Positions 8,689-58,563 of a stretch of DNA of 64,000 bases are shown here, piece after piece. The notes below the pieces were generated by a model. The model was given only the letters and a program-made list of their open reading frames with translations, ran no database searches and was not told the DNA's origin. A program made the position numbers and the translations under genes. Each line of letters starts with the position of its first letter. The stretch's first letter is position 1. The DNA is from Lactifluus volemus (lineage: Eukaryota > Basidiomycota > Agaricomycetes > Russulales > Russulaceae), in contig WTXI01000008.1 of assembly GCA_022376515.1 (NCBI GenBank), positions 434,001 through 498,000 of the forward strand. Direction: 5' to 3'.

Positions 8689-11600
8689 ATGTCTAACAAA
8701 ACCCAGCGGTCCACTCTACCCCTCGTCTTCCTCCCCCATCCCCTCATACTCCTCCCCGGCGCACGCTTGACTTTCCCAATTTCAAATAGGCAAGCTGAAT
8801 CTCTCATCCGTCTCATAGACTCGTCCCTACACAATCCCCTCCTCGCCGCCGTGCCACTCGTTCAGCACCAAGGGAACACCTCTGTGAATAAGTGGGGCGT
8901 CACCGCTCTCATCAAGCGTTTCGTCCGTCCGGGCACCCACTCGGACGATGAGCGTTACTTTCTCACTCTCGCTGGCATTGCCCGTGTCTCTTTGCTTGAT
9001 CCCAGCAAACTTCAATTATCTATTCCCGGCACCTCCTCCCCCTCTGCAGACTCGCACCCGCTTCCCCGCGTAGACGTCATACATCCCCCACCCGATGCAG
9101 AGTTGCCGCCACCTTTTGATGTGGCACAGGATTTCAAGGCGGTGGCCATTCGCCTCTTGGAGCGTCTCGCGAGAGACAACTCGCAGTCTTTGCAAAGACG
9201 GGAGAGCTGGACCCGCATCGCGCAACTGGTGGAAGAGACGGAAATACACAAGGTCGCTACTCTTGCAGATGCCATTGTATCTGCGGTCGGCGCAGAGCAT
9301 GCCGATAAGCTCGGTGGGTTATTTTTCGGTTTCTTTACCCGTGTCCCGTGTCTCCCAAGCAACTGTCCATTGCTACCGCGCTTTTGGCCATTCGGAAGCT
9401 ACACCGTCAGCGCCAGATCCGTCTGTTTACCCGGACCTTCTCCCCAGTCTGTGGATTCACATGTTTCCGTTTTGGCACCGCTCACAACTCCGTGGCTAAT
9501 GCATTGACCCCGTTTCTTTCCTTGTCTAGTCCTCCTCTCTACCGAATCCCCTTCATTACGCCTTCAACACGTAACCAATCTGCTTACGAAGCAACTCTCC
9601 ATCGCTGAAGTCAGCTCAAAGATCGCCACCGCCGTAGACGAATCACTTTCAAAGCAGCAAAAGGCGTTCTTCCTCCGTCAGCAGCTTGCGGCAATCAATG
9701 CAGAGCTACAGCGCCTCGAACCAGGCAGTGTCGACCTGCATGGTACTGCGAGTGGTGTTGAAGATGAGGATGAGCTCGAGACGTTGATTCGCCGAATTGA
9801 TGCTCTACCCGCGGGCAGCGAAGTGCGCCGCGTCGCCTCCGCAGAGGCACGCCGCCTCAAGCGAATTCCCCCTCAGAACGCGGAACATGGTGTCGTGCGA
9901 AATTACGTGCGTCTCTTGCAAATTTCTTCCCCCGGCTGTATATCACCTGACCCTCTGAGACATTGCCCTACTAGCTTGAATGGCTCACTTCCTTGCCGTG
10001 GATCCCTTCGTCTACTGGTTCCGTTGCCGTAACGCGATCCGATTTTCTCGCTAACGCCAAGGCGCAACTCGATGCAGATCACTTTGGGCTCGATAAAGTC
10101 AAGCGTAGGACAATTGAGTACCTCGCTGTCGTCCGTCTACGTGCCCTGATTGCGCAAGAGGCCGAAGCAGAACAGGCCAAGGTGCACGAGGTCGCGCTAA
10201 AGAACACCAGCGAGGACCCTGCTGCGGACGCAGGTGCGGGCGATAATCAGAAGGAGAAAGAGAACGCTTATAAAGCCCTTATCAAGGCGGGTGAAATGCC
10301 ACCGCCGCAAATGCGGCCTAATCCCGCATCACCTCCTTCAACCGAGGTGCGAGCATCGCACAAAGCTATCAAAGCACCGATTTTGCTGTACGTGGCAATA
10401 TTTCTTGTTTAGCGTCGATCATTCGATGACGTCAGCAGATTTGTCGGTCCTCCCGGCACGGGAAAGACGTCATTGGGTCAGTCAATCGCTCGCGCACTCG
10501 ACCGGCCGTTCTATCGCATTGCGCTTGGTGGTGTTCGTGATGAAGCTGAGATCCGGGGTCATCGCCGTACATATGTTGCTAGCGGTCCCGGTTTACTCGC
10601 ACAATCATTACGCAAGGCCGGTCGCATGGATCCAGTTATCTTACTGTGAGTACTGGTTTACCAGTCTTGGATTTTTGACAACAACTCTTTTGACGGCAGA
10701 GATGAGGTCGACAAGGTTGGTCAGTCAAACTACCACGGTGATCCTTCTGCGGCGTTGCTCGAGGTGCTCGATCCGGAACAGAATGTTGCTTTCAATGTAT
10801 ATCCTTGCCCCAAACTCTGATATATTCGTTATTGTTGATGACGTGACTGGTCGGTAGGATCACTATATCAACATTCCAATCGACCTTTCTCAAGTTCTCT
10901 TCATCTGCACGGCCAATTCGCTCGACACGATTGCGCCGCCGCTCCTGGACCGATGCGAGGTGATTCAGCTCTCTGGTTACACACACGACGAGAAGTTACA
11001 CATCGCACGACGGTTCCTCCTTCCGAAGCAGGTCGCACAAAATGGGCTCTCTGAACCACACGTTCAGCTCACCGAACCTGCTCTCCTCCATATAGTCACG
11101 CACTATACACGTGAAGCCGGTGTCCGTGCGCTCGAACGCGCCATTGGCAGCGTCGTACGCTTCAAGGCGGTTGAGTGGGCGGCGCACGTTGACGAGCGTG
11201 GCTTGCCGCCCTCTTCATTACCTGCTTTGCGGCGCTCCTCGCTAGCAAGGGCAGACAACACCACAGGCGTGCTGGTCAAGCATGGAAAGAAGGATGCTGA
11301 CGCCGGATACAATCCAATCGTCGAGATGGGCGAGTTGGAAAAGATCCTAGGCTTGTCACGGTACGATGGCGAGGATCGTGAGCGCGAGGCGAGGCGTGGA
11401 GTCGTTTGGGGCCTCGTCGTAACTGGAATGGGCGAGGGCGAGATTATGCCCGTCGAGAGTATCGCAACCCCTGGAAGTGGCCAACTCAAGCTCACCGGTT
11501 CACTTGGTGATGTACGTCCCTTCCTTCTTATGATGTAGATACAGGATTGACATGTTGGGGACGGACGACTTATTTATTCAGGTGATCAAGGAGAGCGCGG

Positions 11601-18239: not shown

Positions 18240-21000
18240 GTTCTGAACAAAAGTCCTATGTCAAAAGTCTTGGTGAAGATTCTAGCGTCACGATGCGAGC
18301 TTGAAAATAGCATCCCAATCGATCCTTCGATTCCTGACATCGGAGATTCTGTCGTAATCTGCCGACGGCTGTCGAGTGAGTTGCAAAATTGGCATCCAGC
18401 TTATCGCAGAGGGATTAACCGCCCCAATGATCATGACACTGCTGCGCTGCACGCCCCCGTCTCCAATGCGCCACAACTGGGCGTCCAAGGAGGTACATTT
18501 AGGATCCGGCTTGCAGTCCTTTAAATGAGGGAGAGAGATAACTATCAGCACATGAAAGGATTCGCAACGAACACGAAGACCTGACTGTGAGAAAGGTATC
18601 CACAAATTGTCCGATGCGGTGCGCAAACGTAGCAACCGTTACAGGGTCGTGCGTAGGAGTGACGTCACGAACACGAACTTGACGCGCAAATCGATCATAC
18701 CCTAGCCACTTTATTTATCATCCAGTTCAGCCTCATACATAGGCTGGTCAGAACAGAAGTTGTACTGACTGCAATGCAGATATGCGTAGTCGACCAAACA
18801 CCAAGTTGCGCATATTCATGCGCGTTTCGGAGGGTCTCGCATTGACCGGCTGCCGCTGCTTCGAGAGAAAGGCCTAGCTGTCCATCCAAATGTTCAAAGA
18901 AGATGGGAAACTGCAGGTCTGATAAGTCCGACCGCCCACTGACATCTGAAACTGTCAGCGGAGTCGGCATCATTTGGGGTACCACAGGGCCTCTGGACAC
19001 GACAGTACGGTCAAGCACCCAAAAATCTCTTCCATTACTGTCTGAGATGTGTGGTGGGATGTTGGGAGGAGGTCCGTGATCGACGGCCAAGAAGAGGCCC
19101 TCCCTTTCCGGGAGTGACATGGGCTTCAAGGGAGGGAGTGTGTCTTTTCTGAGCACGCTGCAAAAGTGCTGCATTGCGGACTCGTTCTGAAAAGACCAGG
19201 CTATGTATCCGTCGGTAAGGAGAGACTTGATTTCTCCTTGGGGATTCATGGCAGAGGAACTGCGCTGGAGAGTCGTCAATGGACTTGAAAAGATACGAGG
19301 ATACGTATTATATATGAGCATATGCACCGAGATGGAGGAAGGAGTAATGCAGAGCCCGGCTCCGGTCTTGTTGACTCCAAGGCTCTGGTCGCATCAAATG
19401 GGTTGAAAATAAAAGTGTGGTCTAGCTCCCGTCTAATTAGGAAGAGACTCTGCTGAGTCGGAGTAGAGAACGCGGGAATTGGAAAGAAGGGCACATTCTG
19501 AAGCCCCCTTGAGACTTCACCTTCTTCAGAATGGATGGACGGTATAGTAGGCTCAGGCTCAATGAGGGTCGGGAGTGGTAAACCTACCTCAATTTGGTTC
19601 AGTTTTCAACCGCCTGTCACGTGGATTAGCAAATTGCCTTGACGCATGAGGCCTCAGGCCGGACGTACCGCGTTTGGGTAGCTCGGTTTGCAAATGATCC
19701 CTCGTTGTCGGCATTTTAAGGGTTGTGACCAAGTCACTATCCTGGCCTGACACCTACATGTATGCCCAGCTAGTGACGATGGCACTCACGGGTAACACTG
19801 AACAGCATCTTTCTGCCCACAGCTCACTGGCAAGGACAACGCCGGGCCGGTACCGTCAACTATCTCATCCAGCATAAGTATCTTCTTCTCATATTCTGAC
19901 ACGCGACGCCAGCGACGGTGATTAACACACGTTAACATGTGGTGACGACGAGCTGTCTTGTGAGACGTAAAAGCTAGAGCAGATAAAACTTCTTGGCCGG
20001 GCGTCTCTTTATAAATTTATTTCCAACCTTTTTCTCTATAAGAAAGAATAGCAGCCAAAAGCTGCATGTCTTTCACCAACCCTGGGAAAACGAAAGACAA
20101 ACGTACAGGAAACACGCGGGTAAGCGATCCTATTACTTGTCATTACTGACGGTTGTGTCGTATGGACTTCGAGTGTGGCGCAAAAATGGTATCCAACTTC
20201 CTAGGGAGAACTTGGTAGCGGCATTAACTCGAAATACCATATCACAGCGCTGTTGAATGTGCGGGATCTTCTATTTTACAGCCCTAGAGTGGGGGAGGGA
20301 TGAATTCCAAGTGTTCTGACCACCCAGAGAGGTATTACAGTACACATATGCTCAAGCTCAGCGACCCATGGTCACCGGCGCCAGATGAGCAGAGAAGGAA
20401 ATGTGTGCGGCGAGATTGAACTTTGGGTGGGCTGCAACTTGAGAATAAAACAATCGACCAATCTCGTTTCCACGTCCTTGAGTAATTGAACTTGAAGTTG
20501 AGTTACACTGTCGTGTAGGGCCTCCTTCCTGGGGAGACGGCGGACCCAACCATCTCAGCCATTATAGCCGAGAGGTCTGAGCTTCTCCAAGGATGTTCAA
20601 TTTTGGGGAGAAAGTGTGTCTCTTTGAACAATCCCGCCTTTGTGCGCACTTCCCAGCTCGAGGGAAAAGGAAATACTGTGAAAGGGGTCGGAATGAGACC
20701 GTGATGCTGCATTGGGAACAAAAGGAGAATGTGCACCAGCGTTCTCCATGGGGCCTAACTACTGGAAACAGCCTCATCACTGGTGAAGCCTAGATCCAGG
20801 AATCAGGAAGAATGTGGAGTTATAGTTTTTTTACATGCTAGGTTGGACGAATCGTAGGTATTAACACCTTTGTGGTCAGACCATGATACGTTTGACGGAA
20901 CTGATGAAGATGTTAAGGAAGATATTACATGTACTGTATACACTCTGTAATGCATTACACTCCTTTGGCACACCTTGGCCGTCTCCTGCCTACCGGGCAT
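18240..21000. repeat. Tandem duplication unit A (direct)
   Basis: Direct duplicate of 21490-26440. Shared blocks occur in the same order: the orphan gene (18288-19494 versus 21514-22690), a non-coding block near 19690 versus 22840 (TAAGTCACTATCCTGG versus CAAGTCACTATCCTGG), TTGTCATTACTGA at about 20137 versus 25628, and GGAGCCTAAC-type sequence near 20750 versus 26185. Divergence rises away from the gene. Confidence 0.75.
18288..19494 (-). CDS. Orphan hypothetical protein, paralogue A
   Basis: Multi-exon minus-strand gene; outer limits approximate. Parts read with confidence: ELDHTFIFNPFDATRALES (about 19420), a long exon about 19250-18800 containing GYIAWSFQNESAMQHF, LPEREGLFLAVD and FPIFFEHLDGQLGLSLEAAA, an exon near 18709-18600 with WLGYDRFARQ and ATFAHRIGQFVDTFL, and a last exon with CTSLDAQLWRIGDGG and INPSA-like GAVNPSAISWMPILQL ending at 18288. 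Every block is matched by the paralogue at 21.5-22.7 kb with mostly conservative changes, which argues for selection on protein. No known domain recognised; the layout recalls Agaricomycete-specific hypothetical families. Confidence 0.5.
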
Positions 21001-21489
21001 ACAAAACGTGTTCTACAGCAGCCAGCAGTTACGGGTGATCATCTTCTAAACCATGATTGGCACCATCACAAGCTACCGCAAAAATGTTCAGGATAAAAGA
21101 GGAGAAACTTTGTTTCATCCTCTTGGCCCTAACAGACACTGTGATGTGTGCGTGTCACACAGCTGGACATGTGTCGCTAATATAGTCTCTACCTGTGATG
21201 CGAACTCCTGATTATGGTCGTCTTCGGATTGGCGAATCGGGTATCTGAAAAATAAGCGTGCTTACTAACGTGTACGTTCACGTGCAAAGAAAAAGGCATC
21301 ACATGCATCACATGATAGTCACGTCATGCAGGCGTGATTCGCGTGAACCGACTCAGTCCATATTCGATCCTCAATTCTACTTCTTCCTACAAACATAACG
21401 CCCTTGACTGACTAGTACTATCTTGCAAACTCTATGAATCATTCCAATCTACTGCATTACCGACAAGCAAAAGGCCCCAGAACAAACGT
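21001..21489. other. Spacer between tandem units
   Basis: No gene recognised; contains short palindromic and CACATG-rich sequence near 21270-21340. Confidence 0.4.
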
Positions 21490-21513
21490 GGGAAAGTCTT
21501 GGTGAAGGTAGCT

Positions 21514-22690
21514 TCACAACGCGAGCTCGAATATAGCATCCCAATCGATCCGTCGATTCCTGACATCGGAGACCCTGTCGTTGAGTTGCAAAATGGGCAT
21601 CCAAGTTGTTGCGGAAGGATTGATCGCCCCAATGATCGTGATATTGCCGCGCTGGATGCCCTCGTCTCCAATGCGCCACAACTGGGCGTCCAAGGAGGTA
21701 CATCTGGGATCCGGTTTGCAATCCTGCAGAAAAGGATGGAGAAAGGAAATTGCTATCAGCACATGAAAGTCTTCACAGAGGACACGAACCTGACCGTGAG
21801 AAAGGTATCCACAAATTGTCCGATGTGGTGTGCAAAAGTAGCAACCGTTATAGGGTCCGAGTCGTCACGAACACGAAGTTTAAGTTGACGCGCAAATCGT
21901 TCATACCCTAGCCACTGTATTTATCATCCAGTTCAGTCTCATGCATAGGCTGTCCAGAACAGAAGTTGTACTGACTGTAATGCAGATATGTGTTGTCAAC
22001 CAAGCGCCAACGTGCGCATATCCTTGCGCGTTCAGGAGGGTGTCGCATTGACCGGCTGCCGCTTCTTCGAGGGAAAGACCCAACTGTCCGTCCACCCGTT
22101 CGAAGAAGATGGGAAACTGCAAGTCTAAGAAGTCCAGGCGCCCTCTGACAGCCAGCGGAGTTGGCATCATCTGGGGTACCACAGGGCCTCTGGACACGAC
22201 AGTACGGTCAAGCACCCAAAAATCTCTGCCATTACTGTCTGAGATGTGTGGGGGGATATGGGGAGGAGATATGTGATCGGCGGCCAAGAAGAGGCCCTCC
22301 CTTTCCGGGAGTGACATGGGCTTCAAGGGAGGGAGTGTGTCTTTTCTGAGCACGCTGCAAAAGTGCTGCATTGCGAACTCGTTCTGAAAAGACCAGGCTA
22401 TGTATCCGTCGGTAAAGAGAGACTTGATTTCTCCTTGGGGATTCATGGCAGAGGAACTGCGCTGGAGAGTCGTCAATGGACTATATATGAGCATATGCAC
22501 CGAGATGGAGGAAGGAGTAATGCAGAGCCCGGCTCCGCTTTTGTTGACTCCAAGACTCTGGTCGCATCAGATGGGTTGAAAATAAAAGTGTGGTCTAGCT
22601 CCCGTCTAATTAGGAAGAGACTTCCTGAGTCGGAGTAGAGAACGCGGGAATTGGAAAGAAGGGCACATTCTAAAGCCCCTCGAAAACTTC
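21514..22690 (-). CDS. Orphan hypothetical protein, paralogue B
   Basis: Second copy of the gene at 18.3-19.5 kb; limits approximate. Readable parts: ELDHTFIFNPSDATRVLES, GYIAWSFQNEFAMQHF, FPIFFERVDGQLGLSLEEAA, then after an acceptor at AAATACAG the exon WLGYERFARQLKLRVRDD with ATFAHHIGQFVDTFL, and a final exon DCKPDPRCTSLDAQLWRIGD ending at 21514. A copy-specific deletion removes a few codons after MMPTPL relative to paralogue A (TVSDVSG is missing), in frame. The frames are intact, so both copies could be expressed. Confidence 0.5.
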
Positions 22691-23575
22691 ACATATCGTA
22701 GGCGCGGTGAGGAAATCTGCCGGAAATTCGGGGTATCGTTGCCTTCACGGCTAGTTCAAGTTCGTTTCTCGACGAGTCCCCCAATCGCCATCACATGAGT
22801 GACTCGGAGTGAATCGCGTCTAGGTGTAACTTGGTTTGCAGATGATCCTCTTCAGTCGTTGTCGGAATTTTAAGGATTGCAGTAAGTCACTATCCTGGAA
22901 TGACACCTACGCGTATGCTCGCTGTCAAGTGATACGTTCCCTGTGACGTAGGCAAATACGTTTTTCTGGCCACAGGCCGATTCAGCGTCATGACGAGCCT
23001 ACCACTCATTACTCTTGTCTGAAAAGAAGACTAGAGTGTGCATATGAGGTGCATGCATCGCAGACACGAGGACAATGGATACTGTCAGCCATTTCGTCCA
23101 ATCATCTGGAACACGTGTTTTCTGCATGTTCCAAAGTGCGATGATATCTGCCATGGGGCGGTAATTAACACGGGACTACCAGTGACACGTATCAATTATG
23201 ACGTGACGATTGTCTTGTAATGAGATATGGAGGCTAGAGCAGAGGAGACTTACTGGCTTCTCAGTTCGTTCGATCACCAGTTCTAGAGCACATACACCCC
23301 CTCGAGTTCCCGCCCTCCCGCCCACGATCTGCGCTCACCTTCTTGGTCATTGACCCATTGGTTTGCAGTAACCTTTTAGGATTGTAATACTCCAACCGCA
23401 GTACCATGAACACCTACTGGGGAGGTGTGAGGGTCTGGAACCTTTGACTCTTGAGCAGCGAGCTCCCCTCAACTAATAGGCAACCTCTACCCATATCTTC
23501 GTCACGGTCTTCTGCATGTTGAGGACAGGCCCATCACGTGGCACACCTCAGGTCATCTACAAGTCATACTCGCGG

Positions 23576-23594
23576 CAGGCAGGTCCCCCTTCTT
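23576..23594. repeat. LINE target-site duplication, left
   Basis: CAGGCAGGTCCCCCTTCTT, 19 bp, identical to 25548-25566 and directly followed by the poly-T that marks the LINE 3' end. Confidence 0.92.
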
Positions 23595-25547
23595 TTTTTT
23601 TTTTGATCTGCATTTATATAGCGCTGAGAGTCTACAAAAGACAAAGATGCACACGACTACGTTTACAATCTAAACGACTGAGAAAAATAATCTGGTGGGC
23701 TGGGAGTGGTGAGATGAACTTTTAACATAGGAAGGTGTGGTTTGGGTGCAAGGGTAGGTGGTGGGTGGGGGGGATATGAAGGCGAGAGCAGCGTGCTCAG
23801 CCGTGATCTTCTGGGGGGGGTCTCTTCTTCTGGGCCTTACACAGGCCTGGGTCATCTCAATAAATTTAGCTAAAGCCTCTCCGCCTGCTTTTGTCCCAAA
23901 AAGGATGTCCATGGATAGCGTTGGGGACGCTGGGATGAGGAACGACTCTCGGGCCTCTCTGAAACGAGGGCATCGTGCGAGGACGTGGTGTGCGGTCTGC
24001 AGCGTGGTGAGGCTGCATTCGCATCCATGTGGATCGGGGGCTTTTGGTCGGTGTCGAGCTGAGTATTCCCCTGGGAAAGCATGTTCAGTGAGGAGGCGAA
24101 TTAGAGTGCAGAAAACTGGGCGAGCTGCCTTCCCAGCTCCCAGCATAAAATCGGGGGGTTGTCCTGAAGGTGGTTGGTGAAGAGCTCGGAAGACTGGGCC
24201 CCGGTGCGAGCTTTCCAACCAGTCTTGCTTCCATTCAAGGAGGGCTTCGCTCTGGGATTTCTCTCGGAGCGCGCTGATCGTGGATGGCGTGTCATCCGGG
24301 GGAGGGAGAGGGGCCGCTCTGATTGCGATTTCTTGTAAACGTTTGACCGGGTTGAAGCTGGCTGAGCCCGGGAACCATTGGAGTGTGATTGATGTCTCGG
24401 GGAAGGTGGAGAGAGTGTCCGTTAGAGAGTCGCATATAGTGTGGCATGCTGCGGCGTTGTCGTGGCAATCCACAACCTGACAAAATCGTAAGATGTGGTG
24501 ATCTGCGGTGAGGATTTTTACCGTGTTGGAGGTTTCCTGGGTCAGGAGGTCCCTGGCCAGCTCTGCTGCTTCAGCTACCGCCTGGAAAGCGGCATCCCTT
24601 GCGGAGGCCTTGGGGCCTACTACCAGAGCCCTTGATCCTACCTCCTCCCCTCGTCTGAAGCCTACACAGGCACCGGTCCAGACTGGGCCTTCCTGGTTTG
24701 GATTGGGGCCTAGTGCGCGGCAATAAATGAGGATGGTGTTGACGTGCTTGTAGTGGTTCTTGATTGTGCTCGCGGCCAGGGCTTTCCGGGTTTCCCCAGT
24801 GCACTGGTCTGGCACAATCGTGAGACGTCCGGGTGGTGCACAGCGTCTCCATGGTGGGTGCGCGTGGTTGGGCGGATTCCGGCTTTCTACTGGGACCAGT
24901 CTGCTGAGACAGCGGATACAAGAGTCCGGGGGTCGTGCTAGGTCAGGGTAGGGGAGAGGGATGCCACTTCCTTCCGGCCTACTCCACGGTCGGCCCAACC
25001 GCTGGAGGACGGGGGAGTTGGTAGGAAGGGTGAGAAGGCGCACCCCTGCTTGGGCTGAAAATTTGGTGAGATGGATCTTCATTGGGAGGATTGCTGTGAG
25101 TTGGTGGAGGGGCTCGCGGGGGGTGCTGCGGAAGGCACCCGTGATGACTCTGATCGCCGTATTTTGTACTACTTGCAGAGTCGCGATGTGACGTTTTTGG
25201 CCTCGAAACCAAATCGGGGAGCCGTAAGTGAGGGCCGGGAGACAAATGGCGTTGTAAGCCAAATGCCAGTTGCCGTGGTCGAGATCCCGGATTGAGTTTC
25301 CCAGCAGTTGGAGGGCTTTGATAGTACTCTTTGTTCGTGAGGTTACGATCGCTAGGTGTTTGTCCCATGCCAGCTTGTGATCAAAATATATCCCTAGGTA
25401 ACGCACATGGTCAGCTGCATTCACTGAGTAGTAGGTGAAAGAGTCCCAGTCTGGGAGGTAAATCAGTCGTGGGCGTGGGCCGTGGATATTTGGGTTGGGC
25501 CGCCGGCGGGAAAAGAAGAGTACTTTGGTCTCCTCCGGTTCGATGGT
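23595..25547 (-). mobile_element. 5'-truncated non-LTR retrotransposon (Tad/Deceiver-like LINE)
   Basis: Minus-strand element: poly(A) appears as the T run at the left end, truncation is at 25547, and a perfect 19-bp target-site duplication bounds both sides. This is the hallmark of target-primed reverse transcription. A single uninterrupted frame runs from the truncation point to a stop at 23670, followed by a 3' UTR of about 65 nt, so the insertion looks fairly young. Confidence 0.92.
23670..25547 (-). CDS. LINE ORF2 C-terminal part: reverse transcriptase thumb, RNase H-like region, zinc knuckle
   Basis: 625 codons open from the truncation point. Starts in the RT thumb (EETKVLFFSRRR, then HVRYLGIYFDHKLAWDKHL, typical of the YLGV.LD..L motif). 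A region with the position of an RNase H domain follows (GACVGFRRGEE, LQWFPGSASFNPVKRL), but the usual catalytic Asp of TDGS and the His of PGH are not present (TGA and PGS). Near the C-terminus is a C-x-C...H-x4-C knuckle (GCECSLTTLQTAHHVLARC). The RT catalytic YxDD lies in the missing 5' part, so the copy cannot move by itself. Confidence 0.88.
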   Translation of the reverse strand, partial: TIEPEETKVLFFSRRRPNPNIHGPRPRLIYLPDWDSFTYYSVNAADHVRYLGIYFDHKLAWDKHLAIVTSRTKSTIKALQLLGNSIRDLDHGNWHLAYNAICLPALTYGSPIWFRGQKRHIATLQVVQNTAIRVITGAFRSTPREPLHQLTAILPMKIHLTKFSAQAGVRLLTLPTNSPVLQRLGRPWSRPEGSGIPLPYPDLARPPDSCIRCLSRLVPVESRNPPNHAHPPWRRCAPPGRLTIVPDQCTGETRKALAASTIKNHYKHVNTILIYCRALGPNPNQEGPVWTGACVGFRRGEEVGSRALVVGPKASARDAAFQAVAEAAELARDLLTQETSNTVKILTADHHILRFCQVVDCHDNAAACHTICDSLTDTLSTFPETSITLQWFPGSASFNPVKRLQEIAIRAAPLPPPDDTPSTISALREKSQSEALLEWKQDWLESSHRGPVFRALHQPPSGQPPDFMLGAGKAARPVFCTLIRLLTEHAFPGEYSARHRPKAPDPHGCECSLTTLQTAHHVLARCPRFREARESFLIPASPTLSMDILFGTKAGGEALAKFIEMTQACVRPRRRDPPQKITAEHAALAFISPPPTTYPCTQTTPSYVKSSSHHSQPTRLFFSVV

Positions 25548-25566
25548 CAGGCAGGTCCCCCTTCTT
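25548..25566. repeat. LINE target-site duplication, right
   Basis: Identical 19-bp partner of 23576-23594, joined directly to the truncated 5' end of the element. Confidence 0.92.
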
Positions 25567-26570
25567 CATAAGAATACAGTAAGAAAAAAGGACAAGCTTC
25601 TGTTCCGGTTACGTACCCTTCCCACTTTGTCATTACTGAAGGATTATCGTAAGGACACTGGGTGGATCGCAAGAATAGCATTTAACTTCCTGAGGAGACC
25701 AACTACTTGAATTGGAATTCCCATTTCATAGCGTTGAATATGCGGGACCCATTTCATGCAGCTCCAAGCGTTCTGAGGAAGGTTCCATGCATCCCAGCGC
25801 TCAGAAAAATGACTCCGAACCCCGACGCGATTGCCGAGCGAAAAAAAAAAAAGCGTACGGAGCTTCTTTGGCTTGATGTCACAGCCTAGCCAATTCGATG
25901 CATAGGATCGATCAGTCCAGTTTCTCGAGGGAAACAGTTTAACCGTCCGCCTGTTCGAAGGTGAGATCGATGAGCATTGTTAATGGCCATCATGATCACG
26001 AACTGCCGCCTGTAGCACCTCACCTCACGTCGGCCTGCACGCACAACGAACAACTATAATGGCGAGATGTTTGGGCGTTTGACCGTAGCGTCGCCTCGCG
26101 AGGGAGGCCATGCAATTCCCTCAACGTAACAAGGGAAATAAATATTGCGGCGCAAGAAGACTAGGATGCCAGTGTGAAACTATAAATGGAGCCTAACAAC
26201 TGGAAACGACCTTCCAACTGGTGAAGCTCAGTGAAGCCCTAATTCAGATATTAGGCAGGTTGTCAGTGGGTGGCTACAACGGCAATCGTGGATATTAGCA
26301 CCCTTTTCGTCAGACAATCTCGAATGAGTACTATCGTTCATCACCTGTTCGCCAAGGCGGCACCGGTTCTAAGTTGGCACATCTGGAATATCTGACTTCG
26401 GCCTTGAAATACATCGTTTGTGACATGTTTGAGCAAGGCGGACCACGTGTACTCAGCGAGCGTTTTCTGCATCAAATTGGTCAGATTGCCGCTCTTCTAG
26501 CTTCCAGTAATCGCGTCTCCCGACATATACTATACCCCCATATCTGACTCCCAACGATTCACCCCGCAGC

Positions 26571-27504
26571 ATGAGTCCTCCTCGCCCCATTAACCCCACT
26601 TCTCTTGTCACCCGCCTCGACAATCTCGCTCGCCCCCACCTCATCGACACCCGCCCCGCTGCCGCTTTCCTCGCTTCCCACATATAATCCAGCACAATTT
26701 TGCCATCTCTCTCATTCTCACAAACCCGCCGCCGCCGGTTTCGGCTCAATCGATGCCCTTCGTCAGTTCATCGTCCCTGAGCCTTGCAGAAAAGTCTGGG
26801 ACGCTCTAATAGCCCCGGGAGGTTCAAGGATGGTGACGTGATCGTCTATGACGAGGAAATGAATCCACAAGACAGGATGCTCAGGTCCCCGCTTGGGCCC
26901 TCTTTCTCCTCTCCTTGTTCGCGGCAGGGCGGACTATCTAGGGGATGGCATGCTTGCTGTTCGTGCTCACCCTGCATTGTACAACTTTAACATTTCATAT
27001 AATAACACGCTCTCCCCCACATGTCGGATTCGGTCTACGAAGAGCATCATTTCTTTCTTCGACTTCCCCGCCGCCGAAGCCTGAGCTCACCTCCCTTTCC
27101 AAGCCAAAGCAAGGCGCGGGCCTCTTCCAACTCGATACTCCCACCGCCGCGCGTTCAAAAACTCTTCCAGACATCGAGCTCAACGCGGGTTCAACCCCCG
27201 TCCAGATGCTCGCCAACGCTTTTCCAGGCAATAACACCGACACCAGTTCCTGGAACATCACCGATGCCACACCTTCTTCGCCTCCCTCCGTTTCCGTCTT
27301 TCTACTTCCGCCACCACGCCGATCGTCCCTGACCGGACTTCGCAAAATTGATAGAAAACCCGCCGAACGCCTTGGCCCACCAAAGCTTCAGGTGCGCTTC
27401 GCCACTCTTGCTGCTCCTCCTTCCGCCACCTCCTGGTCCAGCGGAGGCGGCGGGAACGGCTCCCAAGCGCACACTTGCCGTCCCACCTCACTCTCGCCCA
27501 CTTA
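26571..27504 (+). pseudogene. Decayed rhodanese-like/dual-specificity-phosphatase-type gene
   Basis: Begins ATG with an intact rhodanese-like opening (RLDNLARPHLIDTRPAAAF, LASHI), then a stop. The sense continues in other frames: GFGSIDALRQFIVPEP, DGDVIVYDEEMNPQDR, GLFQLDTPTAARSKTLPDIE, RRSSLTGLRKIDRKPAERLG. At least three frame changes or stops are needed to join them. The order and wording recall the long N-terminal part of basidiomycete phosphatases in which a rhodanese (CDC25-like) fold precedes a DSP domain; no HCxxGxxR motif is present here. Family call from memory, moderate; the decay itself is seen directly. Confidence 0.45.
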
Positions 27505-27817
27505 AACCACACACCCCCTGCCTCCGCCAGGTATGGTGAGTTCCTCCGTGCACCGCCGTCGCCCAATGTGCTCTCTTCTCCTATAACGCCTATTCCTCCA
27601 CGATAGATGGCATGATCCAGATGCCAGCGCCGTCAATGACATCCTAAAACCTGGCCCACACCCAGGCTAACCCCCATCGCTAGCCAGCTTCGCACCAGCA
27701 CGACACCTCTTGAACACGATTGCTTTGCACCCCTTCCCTCCCAACCACCGTGACCACGAACCGCACGCCATCAGTTATTATCAAAGAAATTAAGCCAAGA
27801 ACACCGCCATCGAAAAC

Positions 27818-28213
27818 GTGGGGAACGTGTTGGCTGAACAGCGACCACTCCGCTCAAGCATAGTAGCATACTACTCCTCCCTCCCACCCCACCCGCAGGC
27901 AAACACCCATCAGTCTTCCAAGGCTCCAAAGGCGGCGACTGAACAATTTTCTCCTCATCTCCGCTCCTACACAGTGAAGTTCCGACCCGACCTGCCCACC
28001 AGCTGTCCTTGTGGCGATCCCATCCAGAGTATCGAACACGTTATCTCTGGAGTCCGACTACCCATTCTACACAAAAGCCCCCGGGAAATCCTTCGATCGA
28101 TCGATCCTGACTCCTCGCTACCTATCTTCCTTGGCACCATCCAGAGAGGTGAGGCGATGATCCGCTTCCTCAAAACCACCCGGCTTCCCAGACAGACCTG
28201 GGACTTGGGATAA
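27818..28213 (+). pseudogene. LINE ORF2 3'-terminal fragment
   Basis: The last 130 or so codons of a LINE-type polyprotein on the + strand: a zinc-knuckle-like CPCGDPIQSIEHVI, then LPIFLGTIQRGEAMIRFLK, the usual tail of fungal LINE ORF2 proteins (GT..G...FL). The final cysteine of the knuckle is not in place. Opposite orientation to the LINE at 23.6-25.5 kb and clearly different in sequence. Directly precedes the pheromone repeat units. Confidence 0.55.
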
Positions 28214-30209
28214 CATTTCCAGGTGTAGAAGTTGATAGAAGTCCATAGCACATCCGTACCCCAAACCGTCACTGAGATATCTTGACCTTAGCGCAGACGA
28301 TACAAGTTTACATTTGTTACGGTCGATACCCGTTCTACCTCTCGTCGGATATTACTGTAAATTTTCTTTTCCCTTTCGCTCCTGGTGCTCGTAGTGATAT
28401 CGCCCTTCGTTCCCCGGCCTTTTTAAAAGGCCGAGGTTGGATAACATTCGCTTGCCAGTGATCGCATCGCTACCATTGTACTATCTCATCATGCTCGGTG
28501 GTCTCGAGTCTCGACTATACCTCGCAACAGGTTAGATACGAAAAATACCTTCTTTTCTCACAAGGATTGAGCCTTGGTCTCGCTTACAATAAGGTGTGTA
28601 TGGCGTTTCGTCTGATCCAAGGAACGTGTGGCGACAGTAGTTCGATTAGCGCGCATCATTATTGTTGTCGTTAAATGTGGTGGTAGGTGGCTTACAACTC
28701 TCGGAGATGGCCTCGAGTAGTTTTCGATGCCCGCCACGACCACCATCAAGCCGTATGCCGAAGGCACAGCTACTTCGGAGTCAATCTGGACCCGTCCGCA
28801 TGGATCATAGAGAGGGCACCCGTCCTCTAAGAAAACGCGAGGGCGCGCTGAGATCCGGCTGGTGAGGGTGATAGAAAAGTTAGCTTTGCAATGACCACCA
28901 CGAATGCGACTCGAAATCTTACCCCGCACTGGAAAATTATTCGCTGAAAATGAAGTTAGAAAAACAAAGCCTAAGCCGAAAGTTGCAAGTGAGCCCGCAA
29001 CTCGATCGGTTGATCGTCATCTGCCGACATGCTGTAGATCATATAGGCAAGTCCTTTTTTCCTGATGTGGCCGTGAACGGGTTTAAGCTGGAGCTTGCTT
29101 GGCCCGGGGTGTGGGTGTTTTTACGTTCGCGGTAGTACCGTGACCCTGCCAGGACGACGAGGGAGCCAATGAACATACAGGTACGCCTGCGAAGTGCCTT
29201 GAGGGCCAAGTACAAATTGGAGACAGTGATAATGCGACATGTGCGGGATTAATTTTTGTCAAGAGTCAAGGACACTTTCTATTCTCCCAGTATCCAAAGG
29301 TGCCAGTGCTAGTAATTCGCGGGTGGGGGAGATGATGGGGGATTGGTGTCGACGAACCCAGAAACCTGAACTCAGAGCGCCTACGGCTGGGAAGATGGAC
29401 TGACAGAGACTTCTGTTATCGCTTTTTGTTTTGATATTTTTTGGATATCATGTCAGTTTAACTTTTTGGTACTGACTGCCAGTGATTCGGACTCGGAAAG
29501 CACGCCCCAAGTCGCAAAGCCACCGGCAAATACCCAATTCCCCATACGCTTCTCCGAGGCATTCTGTAAGGAAGACGTGCACACATCGTCGCGAGTATTG
29601 TTACGCATATGGTGAGGACATCCTAACACTCGGTTGTCTTTGAATATAAGAGAGCATTCGTAGTACGAGATTTACATTCGTGATCAACAAAGCTTCAAGC
29701 TTGGCTCATCGTATCATGCACTTCATCATTTCGTACACGCCGTTTCACATTTTTTCACATCATCACATGAACGACCTGCACAATGATAGCAAGAATAAAT
29801 GATAACATGATCTATGATGATTTTAGGCATGGGTGGGTCACAATGGTCGTTCGTCCTCCAGTCTTGGATAAAGGACAGGTCATACGTTCCGCTCACGGTC
29901 CTCATCTGTTCCCCGACCCATTGCATTGGGTCAGACCCTTGCATCCTAGTTTCTGCAAACCTAGATGGTTACAGTAATATTAACCGACTGAAGCTGTTGT
30001 CGCTCTCAGTGTTGTTGTCCGGAGAGCTAGCTGTGCCTAGGAACGGATCGGGGCTCCCTGCCTCGCTGAACTTCAAAGAACTTGAATGCCGGCGGTGTTC
30101 ACTGAACAAGCCCTTTTGTTGTGCTGTTGTGAAACCTTTCTCTATTGTCTTGAACCTCACCTGCTCCGTTGTAATCCCCTAGGCTGATACGCGCCATGAA
30201 ATGTGAACG

Positions 30210-30217
30210 TATAAAAG
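30210..30217 (+). promoter_or_regulatory. TATA box of pheromone gene 1
   Basis: TATAAAAG, 89 bp before the start codon. The equivalent site in unit U3 (35548-35555) reads GATAAAAG. Confidence 0.7.
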
Positions 30218-30298
30218 GAGACGCTAGTCACTGGCTAGCAGCTAGCACTGGCAGACACATATTCAACCTTCTAAACACCCGCTAAACGCTACAAATCA

Positions 30299-30415
30299 AT
30301 GGATTTTTTCAACGTCATCTCTGCTATATTTCCCGACCCTTATCCCGACCACCAGCCTGATTACCCCACCGACACCGACGGTCCTGGCGATGGCGCCACA
30401 TGCCTCATCGTGTAA
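30299..30415 (+). CDS. Lipopeptide (CaaX) mating-pheromone precursor 1
   Basis: Intronless 38-aa product. Starts MDFFNVISAIF and ends DTDGPGDGATCLIV: Cys35 followed by two aliphatic residues and Val is a CaaX box for farnesylation, AAX removal and methylation. Basidiomycete pheromone precursors share this plan: about 35-60 aa, an MD(S/A)F-type start, an acidic/proline-rich middle and a glycine-rich stretch before CaaX. The usual charged pair about 12 residues before the cysteine reads DY here, not ER or EH. A TATA box lies 89 bp upstream. The copy in U3 conserves start, tail and CaaX although its middle has diverged, which argues for coding function. The family call rests on this architecture; secretion and receptor are not shown by sequence. 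Confidence 0.85.
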   Translation: MDFFNVISAIFPDPYPDHQPDYPTDTDGPGDGATCLIV

Positions 30416-31437
30416 TGGCATTTTCCACAACGGGGTCTAAAGACACTCTGATCGTGACCAAGGCTGGCAAGTGATTTTCTTTTACCTCCTATAATAGCAC
30501 ACAACTTATTCTTCACCCTGCGCGTCGCTGCACCCGATTCATCCCCGTTCTGTTGCATTTTCGTTAGCTCGTTTCTCCATGCGTTTCCTTCCTTTGATTC
30601 TATCAAGACAACACAAATGTCCTTTAACTTTTTGATTATCTATCCACGCACCTGTATCGCGTACATCTTGATTGTAGTGTGTGGATTACCTCCTGTACCA
30701 GTGGATGTATCATCATTTTCTATGAAGGCATTTCGCGTCTGTATATATGCATCTCCTTGCTACTCTCCACTCATGTTGGTACCCACCGGACCCGGTCAAG
30801 GGTGGCCATTTAAAATATGTGGCATCACGAGTTGGTAGGAGATGCACGGGCGAGAAAGATATGTAATGGCATTTGAAAGTGAGATGCTCTGGCAGTTGTG
30901 GGGTAAAATGCCCTTGCATAATGTGGTGACATAAGCGAAACGAGTCGCCGGCTGAAATAAGACACTGCACGAGGCACGGTACTAGTAAGCAGTCTGAGAC
31001 TACTAGGGGAGACAGATTCACCACAAAGGGAAACACGGGGCACGTCAGGATCATTGGAATAAAGGAAAGCTGAGAACCACACAAGACACGTGGCAGGGTA
31101 TTTGGGCTTTGAGATGAAGTAAAAGCAGCATACCGTGACAGCAAGGCACTGAGTCCAAGGCATAAGGAGAGGTGCGTGGATGAGGTGGCATAGCGAAGCA
31201 CAGAACTCGAGCTGAAAAGGTGAAAACGCCAGGAACCTGATGACCTGCTGCAACTACAGGCTTGTTACCGCAGCACTGAAGGTAGCGGAGAAAGGGCAGA
31301 GGGTTGGGTGTGAAGGAAGCTGAAACCGAGACACGGAATCGCATGACCCATAGACCCCCTCGCTTGCCCCCCTCGAACCGCTCCCGGTAGGACTCAGCCC
31401 GGGCACACCGGAACTTGGTGCCTGGCTGTCAATAACC

Positions 31438-33654
31438 CTCGTTGGATATTACTGTAATCTTTTTTCTTTTTTCTTTCGTCCCTGGTGCTCGTAGTGATAC
31501 AGATCACATTTTGTACCCCGGCATTTTCTAAACGACCGAGGTTGGTTAACATTCACATCGCTACCATTGTGTGATACCGTCATGCCCGATTAGGCTTGCA
31601 GTGGTCTCCGTTATACCTTGCAACAGGTTAGATACAAAAATACCGTATTTTTTTTCCCACAAGGATTGAGCCTCGATCTCGCTTACAATAGGGTATGTAT
31701 GGCGTTTCATTTGATCCAAGGAACGTGTGGCGACAGGAGTTCGATTAGCGCGCATCGTTATTGTTGTCGTTGATGGTGATGGTTGGTGGCTTGCAACTCT
31801 CGAAGAGTGGCCTCGAGTAGTTTGCGATGCCCGTCTCAGCCACCACCAAGCCGTATGCCGAAAGCACGGCCACTTCGGAGTCATCTGGACCCGTCCTCAG
31901 AGATCATAGAGAGGGCGCCCATCCGAGTCCTCTAAAAGACGCGAGGGCGCGCTGAGATTCGGCTGGTGAAAGTGATGATAGAAAAGTTAGCTTTTCAATG
32001 ACCATCATTAAGCCGAACCGTGATGTTGCCGCAAGTGAGCCCGCAACTCGATCGGTTGGTTGTCATCTACCAATGTGCTGTGGATCATATAGGCAAGTCC
32101 TTCTTTCCCGATGTGGCTCTAAGCTGGAGCTTGCTTGGGTTACTGGCTGTGAGGATACCTTTACGTTCGCAGTATCTCGTACCGTGATCCTGCCGGGACT
32201 ACGACGAGGGGGTGCCAATGAACCTCCAGGATGCCTGTGAACTGAGGAGCCTTGAGAGCCAAGTACAAGAGACAATACAACATGTGCGGGATGAAATTTT
32301 GTCAAGAGCTAAGGAAATTTTCTCTTTTATCAGCATCAAAAGGTGCTAATTCGCAGGTGGGGGGATGGTGGAGGGCAGTGGGGTGTCAACGAACCCAGAA
32401 CCTTGAACTCAGGACGCCTACGACTGGGAAGACGGTCCGACCGAAGTTTATGCTGCTTTTTTTTTGTTTATGTCGTCTATTGTTTTGATTTTTTTGGGTA
32501 TCATGTCAGTCTAAGTTTTGGGTAACTGACAGGGCGCTCGAATTCGCAGCGCCACCCGGCACATACCTGATTACCCATACGCTTCTCCGAGACATTCCAT
32601 AAGGAAGACGTGCACACACCGTCAGGAGTACGGTTACCCACATGGTGAGGACATCCTAACACTCATTTTTCTTTGAATCTAAGAGAGCATTCGTGGTCAA
32701 CAAAGCTTGGCTCGTCGTATCATGCCAGTGCACTTCACCGTTTTGTTAACGCCGTTCCACTTTTTTTACACGAACAACCTGCACGATGATAGCAGGAATA
32801 AATGATGACATGATCTGCGATGGTTTTAGGCATGGGTTGTCACAATAGTCATTCGTCCTCCAGTCGCGGACAAAGAATAGGTCATACCAACTCTTAGTAC
32901 GTTCCGCTCACGGACCTCATCTGTTCCCTATCCCAGTGTTGTTGTCCGGAGAGCTAGCTGTGCCTACTAGGAACGGATCGGGCTCCCGGCCCCGCTGCTG
33001 AACTTCAAATGATGCCGGCGGTGCTAACTGAACAAGTCCATCTGTTGTGGTGTCGTGACACCTTTCTCTATTGTCTTGAACCTCACCTGATGAAGGCATG
33101 TTTACGCATCAGTATAGACTTTGCTACTTTGGCCGTCTTTGGCCCACTGGGCCCGGTCAAGGGTAGCCATTTAAAAATATGCGTGATCACGAGTTGGCAG
33201 GAGATGCACGGGCGAGAAAGATACGTACGTAAGGGATTATTCAATTTCAATTAAAGGAAAACTGCGAACCACATAAGACACGTAGCAGGGTATTCGGGCT
33301 TTGAGAAGAAGTAAACGCAGCACGCAGCAAGGCACAGAGTCCAATGCGTAAGGAGAGGTGCGTGGACTAGGTGGCATAGCGAAGCACAGGACTGAGAAGG
33401 CGAAAATGCTGGAACTTGATGATGTGCCGCAACTCTAGGCTTGTTACGGTAGCGTAGAATGGAGCAGAGTAAGGCCAGAGGGTTGGGTGTGAAGAAAGTT
33501 GAAACCGAGCCCTGGGTCAATGGGTCATGCGATTCCGCTCCCACACTAGCCATGAAAGCGGACAGATGGTCATGCGGGCACGGAGCAACCAAGTTAGGGT
33601 TGCACGGGGTAGCACCCGGTCCGGGCACACCGGAACTGGGCGCCTGTCAATAAC
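31438..33654. repeat. Tandem repeat unit U2 (pheromone gene deleted)
   Basis: Middle unit, about 2.2 kb, same order of landmarks as U1 and U3. It runs straight from TTGTCTTGAACCTCACCTG to ATGAAGGCAT near 33090, whereas U1 has about 560 bp between these points (30164-30722), including TATA box and pheromone gene. Confidence 0.88.
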
Positions 33655-36600
33655 CCGCGCTACCTATCGTTGTAATTTTTTTTTCTTTTCCCTTTCGTCC
33701 TTGGTGCTCGTAGTGATACACCCTTCTTACCCCAGCCATCTAAAAATACGAGGTTGGTTAACATTTGCATCGCTACCATTGTGATGTCATCATGCTCCGA
33801 GTTGATTTTTCTAAAACTGAGCGTGGCAAAAGTTCTCGATACAAGAAATCCCATCTTTTTTTTTTTGCCACCAGGACTGAGCCTTGGTCTCGCTTACTAG
33901 AGGGTATATATGGTGTTTCGTTTGATCTGTCGAATGTGTGGCGACAGTAGTTCGATTAGCGCGCATCGTTATTGTTGTTGTTGATGGTGGTGGTGGGTGG
34001 CTTCTGACTCCGAGTCGGAGAGTGAGTGGCCTTCGTAGTTTGCAATGCCCGCCTCGGCCACCACCAAGCCGTATGCCGAAGTCACAGCCACTTCGGAGTC
34101 AATCTGGACAAGGACGTCCGTGCGGATCATTGTAGAGAGGGCACCCATCTTCTAAGAAAACGCGAGGGCGCGTTGAGATTCGGCTGGCGAAGGTGATAGA
34201 ATAATTTAGCTTTGCAATGACGACCACAAATGTGACTCGAAATCGCACCCGCACTGGAAAAATGTTCGCTGGGAATTGAAAAAAACAAAGCTCTAAGCCG
34301 AAGATTAAATTGAAAGCAAGTGAGCCCGCAACTCGATTCGGTTAATCTGCCGACGTACTGTAGATCGTATAGGCAAGTCCTTCTTTCCTGATGTGGCCCA
34401 TGAGCGGGATTAAGCTGGAGCTTTCTTGGATTACTGACTGTGAAGGTGCTCTTATGTTCGCAGCATCTCGTACCGTGATCCTGCAGGGACGACCGAGTCA
34501 CGAGGAGGGAACCAATGAACATACAGGACGCCTGCGAAAAGCCTTGAGGGCCAAGAAAAAATGGAGACAGTGCCAATGCGACATGCGGGGGATGAAACAT
34601 CGTCAAGAGTCAAGGATATTTTCTATTTTCTCATCTAAAGGTGTTAATTCGCGGCTGGGGGAGATGGTGGGGGGGCGGGGGGTGTCGATGGACCCAGATA
34701 CTCAAAACCCCTACGGCTGGGAAGATGTTCCGACAGAAGCTTCTGCTGCTTTTCTCCTTTTGTTATTTCGCTTTTTGTTTTCATTTTTTTGGGTATCAAG
34801 TCAGTCTAACTTTTTCCTAATCGATAGGGCGCTTGACTTCGCAACGCCACCCGACACATACCCATACCCACTGCATACGCCTCTTCGAGGCATTCTGTAA
34901 AGAAGGCGTGCACACGTATGGTAACGCATATGGCGAGGACATTCTAACACAACTTTTTTTTTTTTGAATCCAAGAGGGCAATCGTGATAAGAGATTTACG
35001 TTGCCAGTTCGTGGTCAACAAAGCTTCCAAGTTGCACGTTGTATCATGCACTTCACCATTTCGTACACGCCGTCCCACGTTTTTCTCCTCCACAACAATA
35101 GCAGGAATAAACTACGACATGATCTATGATGGTTTTAGGAATTGGTAGTCACAATGGTCGTTCGTCATCCAGTCGTGGACAAAGACTCGGAACAGGCCAT
35201 ACGTCTCACGGACATCAACGTTTTGAACTCTCATCTGTTCCCAGCGTTGCGTAGAGTCAGACCCATTGTCCCCTAGTACTGCAAACCTAGATGATAAAGG
35301 TGATATTAAACTGACTGACACTGTTATCGCTCTCAGTGTTGTTGTCCGGAGAGGTAGCTCAGGCTGTGCCTAGTAGGAACGGATCGTGCTCCCGCTGAAC
35401 TTCAAATAACTTAAAATGCCACACGGCGTTAACTGACCAAGTCCTTTTGTTGTGTTGTTGTGACATCTTTCGCTATTGTTTAGAACCTCAGATCTGCTCT
35501 GTAGATCTCCTAGGCTGATACTAGTACGCGCCCACGAAACGTCAACAGATAAAAGGAGATGCTCGTAGCAGCTAGCAGAAACATATTCAACCTTCTAAAC
35601 ACCCTCTAACGCTAACACATCAATGGATTCGTTCAACACCATCTCTGCTATATTTTCCGCCCCTCCAAGTGGCCCCGACTTCCATCCTGAGCACCCCACC
35701 GACACCGATGGTAATGGGAGTGGCGGCAATTGCCTCATCGCGTAGTCGTATTTTCCGCCACGGGGTCTCAAAACGCTGTGATCATGACCAGGATGACTGG
35801 CAAGTGACTTTCCTTTACTTTCTATAATAACCCACAACTTATTCTTCACCCCTTTACGTCGCAGCACCCGATTCATCCCCCGTTCTGTTGCACTCTCATT
35901 ATTTCGTTCTCCATTTGTATTCCTCCTTTGATTGTACCAGGACAACACAAATGTCCTTTGACCTTTTGATTATGTATTCACACATTTGTCATCTACATAC
36001 ATCTCGATTGTAGTAATGTGTGTATTGCCTCCTGTGCCAGTTGATGTATCATCGTTCTATATGACACTAATAGGATCATCTTTCGCTAACAGAAAATATT
36101 GTTGGATGATGTCGACAGACTGGCCACCTCTATCGAAGAACTCGCCAATTGGAGATGCTCACCTGATGCCCGGACTCCGAACTACTCCTGGTTCACGCCA
36201 ACACGTGAACGTCATAAGAGCTAGGCTGAATTCGTGGGATATTCCCTCCTAGACCTTCTATAGCACCCCAACTTGATTTGCGCAATGAAAGTGTTAAACC
36301 ATTTCAGGTGTGTGTGAACTGTTGATGCATCGTTTGGAACAAGATATGTCCCAAGGCATTATGCATTAGTTTAGATGCATCTCCTTGCTACTTTGGTACG
36401 TTGGCCGTCTTTGGCCCACCGAGCCCGGGCAAGTGTAGCCATTTAAAATATGCATCATCACGAGTTGGAAGGAGATACGCGCGAGAAAGATACGTAAGAG
36501 CATTTGGAAGTGAGATGTTTTAGCAGTTGTGGAGTAAAATGTCCTTGGTGATATAAGCGAAATGAGTCGCGAGGTGCAATAAGACACGGCACGAGGCACG

Positions 36601-36940
36601 GTACTAAGCAGTCTGAGACTACTAGGGGAGACACAGGGAACGTTAGGATCATTGAAATAAAGAAAAACTGAGAGCCACACAAGGTACATAGCAGGGTATT
36701 CGGGCTTTGAGCAGAAGTAAACGCAGTACGCAGTAAGGCACACACCCCAAGGCGTAAGGAGAGGTGTGGTCGAGGTGGCGTAGCGAAGCACAGGACTGAG
36801 AAGATGAAAACGCTAAGAACTTGATGACGTGCCGCAACTCCAGGCTTGTTACTGCAGCGCTGAAGGTAGCAGAGCAAGGGCAGAGGGTTGAGTGTGAAAG
36901 GAGCTGAAACCGAGGGTCCATGGGTGGTGAGAGTATCATC
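33655..36940. repeat. Tandem repeat unit U3 (with pheromone gene)
   Basis: Third unit, about 3.3 kb; carries an extra segment near 36065-36370 not seen in U1. Ends at the AAACCGAG landmark, followed by single-copy sequence. Confidence 0.88.
35623..35745 (+). CDS. Lipopeptide (CaaX) mating-pheromone precursor 2
   Basis: Intronless 40-aa paralogue of the gene at 30299. Starts MDSFNTISAIF, ends DTDGNGSGGNCLIA, so Cys37 heads a CaaX box (CLIA). The EH pair at residues 23-24, 12 residues before the cysteine, matches the canonical processing dipeptide of basidiomycete pheromones, predicting a mature lipopeptide of about 13-14 residues. The middle has diverged strongly from copy 1 (about ten substitutions and a two-residue length change) while start and tail stayed alike. 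The TATA box is changed by one base (GATAAAAG at 35548), so expression may differ. Sits in tandem unit U3. Confidence 0.85.
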   Translation: MDSFNTISAIFSAPPSGPDFHPEHPTDTDGNGSGGNCLIA

Positions 36941-37620
36941 GCGTAAGCCAGCACGGCATATGCCACGACATTATCTTCGTTCCCTGCTGTGCATCACCTA
37001 TGATGGAGTATTCTTGTTGGACAAGTATGACGTCCTTGTACCCAGGTGGCAGAAGGGAAAAAAGGACATGATCGCCACATCTTTAGACGTGAAATTTGTG
37101 TAAAACGTCAACGCGTCAAATAACGGGCACGTGCCCTAACTCCCATGCTATGCCGCAGTGGTGGTCGTCGGTAAGTAAAGCATAAGGATCACGCTCCGAT
37201 TCATTTTATGACATCATAAATATTCTTGATTGCGGAAAATAACTCATTAACGGTGCTCGACGAGGCCGTAGAAGTCCAAAGTCGGAGCACACATCAGGAT
37301 GGCTAGGTCGTACATGGTCAGAGGTGTTTGTACACTTGAGGGGTTAACGAAAGAGGTGAAGGCGAACGGGGTTGAGCTGTACGGCTCGTCATGCAAGGTC
37401 GAGTTTGGAGTAAAGGAGGCATAGAGGGAAGAGGGAGTTAAGTGCGAAAATAGCCCAAAAGGCGATACACGGAGAGATGAAGATTAGTTCAGATCAGAGC
37501 AGCATCAACCGCACATGAACAAAAATAACAAAAAAAAAGTCCTTGGGCTCCAGCGGCCTTGATATCGACAGCCGGTATGCCAAAAAAAAAAAAAGGTAGC
37601 GCGAGACAAGAAAAAAATCA
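36941..37620. other. Right edge of the repeat island
   Basis: No gene recognised. AT-rich, with poly-A runs near 37530 and 37580. It also holds the 3' flank of the coiled-coil gene. Confidence 0.5.
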
Positions 37621-58414: not shown

Positions 58415-58563
58415 TGATGTTGTCGGTAATAGCGGGGATGTTCTCACGGGTTGGTGACTAGTCATACGGCTCGGTCCCTTTAATCTTGTTACCACTGCAA
58501 CACCCATCAAGGGCACGTAGACCTCTGCGTGCAACAACATTTGATACAACCACCTCACATTTT
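58415..58563. promoter_or_regulatory. Bidirectional promoter ARPC5 / F-box gene
   Basis: 149 bp between divergent start codons. No clear TATA box. Shared promoter inferred from spacing. Confidence 0.55.

Follow-up and report, generated by a model that had tools for sequence, protein, structure and literature searches.

The a-factor of Saccharomyces cerevisiae is prenylated, trimmed and methylated, and is recognised by Ste3. Precursors in basidiomycetes are described as short, CaaX-ended and often missed by gene predictors (PMC5473757, PMC4101180). Passages on gene content report four or three precursors and five receptors in two Serpula strains (PMC3564976), three precursors and five receptors in Hypsizygus (PMC8686365), and, for Flammulina, three precursors close to receptors, with a distance of 177 kb between subloci called exceptionally large (PMC3140503). 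STE3 and phb genes have also been counted in 73 genomes including Russulales, in a survey whose search, as its text describes it, was filtered with PF08015 (PMC8686365); larger precursor or receptor numbers may already be in print there. For Lactifluus or Russulaceae pheromone/receptor (P/R) genes, or Lactifluus mating, we found no study by title or abstract. We analysed a window of 64,000 nucleotides of Lactifluus volemus DNA (positions 434001-498000 of contig C607, in an assembly of 62.4 Mb and 628 contigs), and one short reading frame in it, as judged from sequence, very probably encodes a prenylated peptide pheromone, in precursor form, that belongs to the basidiomycete STE3 system.

The focal frame and its repeat unit

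Window positions 30299-30415 on the plus strand translate to MDFFNVISAIFPDPYPDHQPDYPTDTDGPGDGATCLIV and then a stop. The first-pass annotation had described a 38-codon intronless frame with an MDFF start, a Gly-rich tail and a CLIV end, and the translation agrees, the tail being rich in both Gly and Asp. The parts of the putative gene are as follows:

30299..30415, plus strand: focal candidate pheromone precursor frame, 38 codons, 38 aa, intronless, CLIV end
30401..30412, plus strand: CaaX codons TGC CTC ATC GTG (C-L-I-V), read from the sequence; Cys invariant in 12/12 aligned intact paralogues
30210..30217, plus strand: putative TATA box TATAAAAG, 89 bases upstream of the ATG, read by eye
30248..30298, plus strand: 5′ leader CATATTCAACCTTCTAAACACCCGCTAA continuing to the ATG, common to family copies with differences between them

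Upstream DNA could be aligned for 15 copies (12 intact and 3 broken), and all 15 have a TATA-like box, which reads TATAAAA, TATAAGA or GATAAAA, and a 5′ leader close to CATATTCAACCTTCTAAACACCCGCTAA ahead of the ATG.

The focal frame sits in repeated DNA, as had been claimed, but what was called a junk repeat is a duplicated gene unit: a gene-carrying direct repeat of 2-3 kb, present three times within the window, with limits that are approximate because they were read from repeat pairs.

28520..31400, plus strand: repeat unit 1, bearing the focal gene; limits approximate
31600..33600, plus strand: repeat unit 2, gene-bearing stretch absent between ~33090 and 33144; limits approximate
33800..37000, plus strand: repeat unit 3, bearing the second intact copy; limits approximate
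35623..35745, plus strand: second intact putative pheromone precursor frame, 40 aa, MDSFNTISAIFSAPPSGPDFHPEHPTDTDGNGSGGNCLIA, in repeat unit 3

Further copies lie on the minus strand at 499 to 531 kb of C607, so that the array consists of two halves that point towards each other, with ordinary genes in between. Tandem Repeats Finder, with a longest tested period of 500 bases, found no array.

Repeated DNA of this kind raises the alternative that the frame is a chance one, riding passively in a non-coding tandem repeat. Two frames of 30-65 aa in the window combine MDxF with a C-aliphatic-aliphatic-X end (30299-30415 and 35623-35745); 60 first-order Markov copies of the window averaged 0.000 such frames. 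Once the MDxF requirement is dropped, 0.98 frames are expected against 2 observed, so that the CaaX end alone is weak evidence; it is the paralogues described below that argue against chance.

Several other features of the window were recorded. Ordinary genes flank the array on the plus strand (5825-7386, 8656-11538 and 58462-60355), and the flanking gene types are importin beta-like HEAT/TPR repeats, a Lon protease, and an F-box gene, after which comes a frame weakly similar to WD40. A 631-aa frame on the minus strand (23670-25565) resembles by eye the end of a non-LTR retrotransposon and has no Pfam match at E <= 0.001. Two similar minus-strand frames (CDQSLGVNK...; 18695-19393 and 21901-22566; 232 and 221 aa) lie ~3 kb apart and have no Pfam match, and the DNA around them is ~85% alike, as seen through contig C527. 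That contig matches window positions 20816-30141 at 99.84%; its end falls within the repeat unit, 157 bases short of the focal ATG. We considered C527 as a second allele and set it aside, as 99.84% is far closer than the long pieces shared by C77 and C607 or by C289 and C35 (about 94-98%; a shorter piece has 92.5%). It could be a duplicate made in assembly, or an allele that breaks off at divergent DNA. For the focal gene itself we found no second allele.

Family copies, conservation and profile matches

Whole-genome searches, whose counts are lower bounds, returned at least 16 protein matches to the focal peptide (self included) and at least 25 DNA pieces for its 498-base surroundings (self included; some short, and one of them the C527 duplicate), while the C35 member as query gave at least 13 matches, all within the same set of loci. 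Reading of the fetched loci yielded 12 distinct intact copies of 36-45 aa, all of which combine MDxF and a CaaX end with a common leader and a hypervariable stretch:

C607, intact copies at 424801, 464299 (focal), 469623 (second in window), 499786, 503522, 507515, 520749, 527497, 530979 and 723305
Other contigs, intact copies at C35:454945 and C46:550444

Nine of the intact copies on C607 fall within 106 kb. Two members have haplotig twins with identical proteins (C607:723305 and C77:77452; C35:454945 and C289:9344), and in DNA the C35 and C46 copies are 70-72% identical to the focal stretch. Three copies are frame-broken and reach no CaaX end (C607 at 510919 and 516257, and the C201 copy), and no intact frame was found in the family copy near 524 kb of C607; since intact copies were chosen by their CaaX end, these four broken copies have to be weighed against the 12. 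Among 246,015 fetched bases there are 19 CaaX frames (25-89 aa), 14 of them from the family, which become 12 distinct ones once the two haplotig twins are set aside; the bases were picked around matches, and 14/19 is not a genome-wide rate. The copies at C35:454945, C46:550444 and C201:339922 (frame-broken) are dispersed, on contigs that lack any STE3 match.

The family shows a conserved leader and a fast-varying stretch behind it. In focal numbering, M1, D2, F4, S8, I10, F11, P16, P23, D25, D27 and C35 are invariant in 12/12 intact proteins, and eight columns remain invariant when two outside relatives (P0002 and P0003) are included. The hypervariable part runs from D27 to the Cys, and the CaaX ends of the 12 copies are CLIV (5), CVIV (2), CLIA (2), CVIA, CIVA and CLVA. 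Between pairs of copies the mean amino-acid difference is 0.75 in the variable stretch, more than in the leader (0.36) or the CaaX end (0.34), and the gap in variability between variable stretch and leader was reached by 17/20,000 column permutations. The dN/dS ratio (Nei-Gojobori, all pairs pooled; pairs are not independent and gene conversion is not modelled) ranges in the leader from 0.63 for the 12 copies to 0.69 for the 8 array copies; it is 1.48-1.72 in the variable stretch and 0.84-0.97 for the four CaaX codons, which offer few sites. For the whole CDS it is 0.81-0.92, so that constraint on single copies is loose and purifying selection is not strong.

These patterns bear directly on the chance reading. 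The repeated DNA, the broken or deleted copies and the whole-CDS ratio would all fit a passive passenger, but the frame, the start and the CaaX end are kept at 12 distinct loci, including C35 and C46 at 70-72% DNA identity, gaps among intact copies leave the reading frame whole, dN/dS lies below 1 in the leader and above 1 in the variable stretch, chance predicts none of the two frames in the window, and relatives occur in three outside records. We therefore consider a chance frame highly improbable.

The outside relatives (P0002, P0003 and P0124, from ENA or JGI records that are probably metagenomes) all end in CLIA. They come from two profile searches of 5.8 billion proteins that were limited to 17 and 24 word-sharing candidates, among which there was no L. 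volemus protein record for the family; the family genes thus seem to be unannotated in that species. The first-pass annotation had held that genes of such size are routinely missed by annotation, which agrees with the literature and with this result. One further record, P0030, is a receptor piece 99% like the receptor at 423 kb of C607; for P0003 and P0030 alike the longest contig given is 13,674 bases, so the two may share a contig.

Profile matches are less straightforward. An HMM search with known pheromone precursors had been proposed as a check, and here the pheromone reading fared badly: the Pfam family PF08015 (Pheromone) matches 0/12 members and 0/3 outside relatives at E <= 10, a result that alone would have spoken against a pheromone. 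As a control, PF08015 matches 6/6 Rhizopogon pheromones (six peptides out of 13 rows in the source table) at E values of 2.5e-5 to 0.057, with 2/6 over the cut-off. A profile built from these six published peptides and run without filters gave the focal peptide 8.4 bits, where the 95% point of a null that keeps MDxF and CaaX and shuffles the middle is 6.8 bits; 9/14 family members lie above that point and 5/14 below, and the best shuffle reached 13.1 bits, more than the focal peptide. In the reverse direction, 4/6 Rhizopogon peptides exceed the 95% point (5.9). By its layout the family thus belongs with basidiomycete pheromone precursors, though it is not a member of PF08015.

Another small CaaX protein could in principle account for the same ending, since G-protein gamma subunits and Ras-like proteins also end in CaaX. 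Proteins of 36-45 aa are however too short for either, no Pfam family matches any of the 12 members at E <= 10 (HMMER filters drop most weak matches), and a gamma subunit or Ras-like fragment would leave the expansion of the family beside STE3 genes unexplained. We give this alternative almost no weight.

The pheromone-precursor reading was the claim of the first-pass annotation, and it is upheld by size, the MD start, the CaaX end, the conserved leader with its fast-varying stretch, the core promoter and the three outside relatives. Among the features by which such precursors are recognised, the focal gene has a length of no more than ~100 aa, the CaaX end, MD(x)F, an association with STE3 genes and a variable peptide behind a conserved leader; it has neither a charged pair or Glu ~10-15 residues before the CaaX nor a PF08015 match. 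At the position of the charged pair (ER/EH type) the focal copy has DHQP instead, and an ER pair occurs in 4/12 copies (424 kb, 723 kb, C35 and C46), at least 17 residues before the Cys. The charged pair is speculated to be an N-terminal cut site in the passage that treats it in PMC3140503 and is called required for maturation in a figure legend of PMC8686365.

STE3 receptors and the question of mating

The first-pass annotation had placed a P/R-type mating or pheromone-signalling locus here and had pointed to DNA beyond the window as the place to look for STE3-type receptors. These are present. The STE3 profile PF02076 has at least 82 exon matches in the genome, which group into 15 loci and a fragment on C607 (131-159, 384-387, 423, 706-721 and 929 kb), five loci and a fragment on C77 (64-75 kb), one pair on C596/C626, and weak single-exon matches on C385/C112; the loci are putative, being groups of exon matches. 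The nearest to the focal gene is 40 kb to its left, 10 kb beyond the window edge, and none lies within 10 kb. Other family members are closer to receptors: a STE3 gene at C607:422842-423815 is ~1 kb from the copy at 424801 and divergent to it, and the copy at 723305 lies ~2 kb past a cluster of six receptors at 706-721 kb.

A receptor tree was built from 9 crude models of this genome and 38 proteins chosen from 120 listed, 47 rows in all. It joins the receptors at 384, 423 and 706-721 kb in one clade (100/100), separate from other Russulaceae. The 131 kb receptor groups with L. subvellereus (91/63), the 387 kb receptor, whose model is short and crude, is not part of the 29-row clade (100/97) that the remaining Russulaceae form, and four Russula species have their own receptor pairs or clades. 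STE3 has expanded strongly in one species, with tandem clusters.

Within the pheromone-precursor explanation there are two ways to read the family. One is that it encodes non-mating pheromone-like lipopeptides, which would act through STE3-like receptors in processes such as fruiting, hyphal growth or nuclear traffic, without setting mating type. The paralogues are similar to each other, and a passage on Pycnoporus describes distinct precursors as typical of the B mating type and more similar ones as like presumed non-mating peptides (PMC4101180). Two members are identical in protein across haplotigs, which would be unexpected for a determinant of specificity; the C35, C46 and C201 copies are apart from any STE3 match; and the receptors at 384, 423 and 706-721 kb look like a species-level expansion. 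Against this, the stretch before the Cys is hypervariable among copies, and C607 carries a match to a PAK-type PBD at 250 kb (PAK/CLA4 type; 250096-250316), one of at least three PBD places in the genome; Pak kinase is often linked to MAT B, according to the relevant part of PMC3564976. Homeobox_KN matches lie on C168, C1 and C95, which puts homeodomain (HD) candidates and P/R genes on different contigs, and on C1 and C95 a Peptidase_M3 match is ~2 kb from the homeobox match, so that the layout allows a tetrapolar B locus on C607. RIC1 and ICMT, which flank MAT B in other orders, have no match on C607, and RIC1 is on another contig. We put the non-mating reading at a little under even. A mating role, to which the hypervariable stretch and the P/R setting point, stands near one half for the focal gene.

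Whichever role applies, the pheromone precursor would be matured as in a-factor-type pathways: the Cys would be farnesylated, LIV removed and the new C-terminus methylated, the leader would be cut off upstream of the variable stretch, and a lipopeptide of ~8-18 residues would be exported and would activate a STE3 GPCR in a partner, whether cell or nucleus. The family probably grew by tandem duplication of the 2-3 kb unit beside the P/R region, with some copies lost, and one haplotype could then emit several different peptides. The array layout, in which nine intact precursors spread over about 106 kb have a single receptor at their edge and the six receptors and a fragment at 706-721 kb are accompanied by a single precursor, invites a broader proposal that we consider rather doubtful: the P/R region would have an organisation without counterpart in the papers compared, pheromone genes and receptor genes having largely parted into separate tandem arrays, and new pheromone specificities would arise as units duplicate and the mature peptide changes fast. 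If true, each nucleus would broadcast a mixture of peptides.

Comparison with described pheromone systems

The family offers a natural set of variants, one leader with many mature peptides, in which peptide-receptor specificity could be tested, and it opens the role of non-mating STE3 receptors to testing in an ectomycorrhizal genus. A survey with a PF08015 filter would overlook the family.

Its closest likeness is to the phb genes of Rhizopogon, which the descriptions in PMC5473757 portray as short frames with an MDxF start, a CaaX end and a variable stretch before the Cys, near STE3 and missed by predictors. CVIV and CVII ends occur among them (PMC5473757), so the focal CLIV is not odd. The two differ in length (48-60 aa in the six Rhizopogon peptides tested, 36-45 aa in L. 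volemus), in PF08015, which matches theirs and not the L. volemus family, and in the ER pair, which the focal copy lacks. They also differ in number: R. vinicolor is given 8 precursors and 6 receptors (PMC5473757), whereas L. volemus has many related tandem copies. The Pycnoporus non-mating peptides, as presented in PMC4101180, are similar in that several precursors resemble one another; by comparison, in L. volemus the residues before the Cys are hypervariable, and the contig that holds the cluster has most of the STE3 matches. Trichaptum Phe3, as described in the portion of PMC8970355 on this locus, shares the MD start (in most), the CaaX end and a place beside STE3 genes, but there two precursors and four receptors occupy 30 kb and RIC1 flanks them, while in L. 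volemus RIC1 is elsewhere. With the S. cerevisiae a-factor the likeness is one of pathway, the same maturation being predicted for the L. volemus family. Precursor and receptor numbers in the compared papers are lower than in L. volemus, in a comparison that is no survey. The kind of gene is already known, and it is the arrangement in L. volemus that is unusually expanded.
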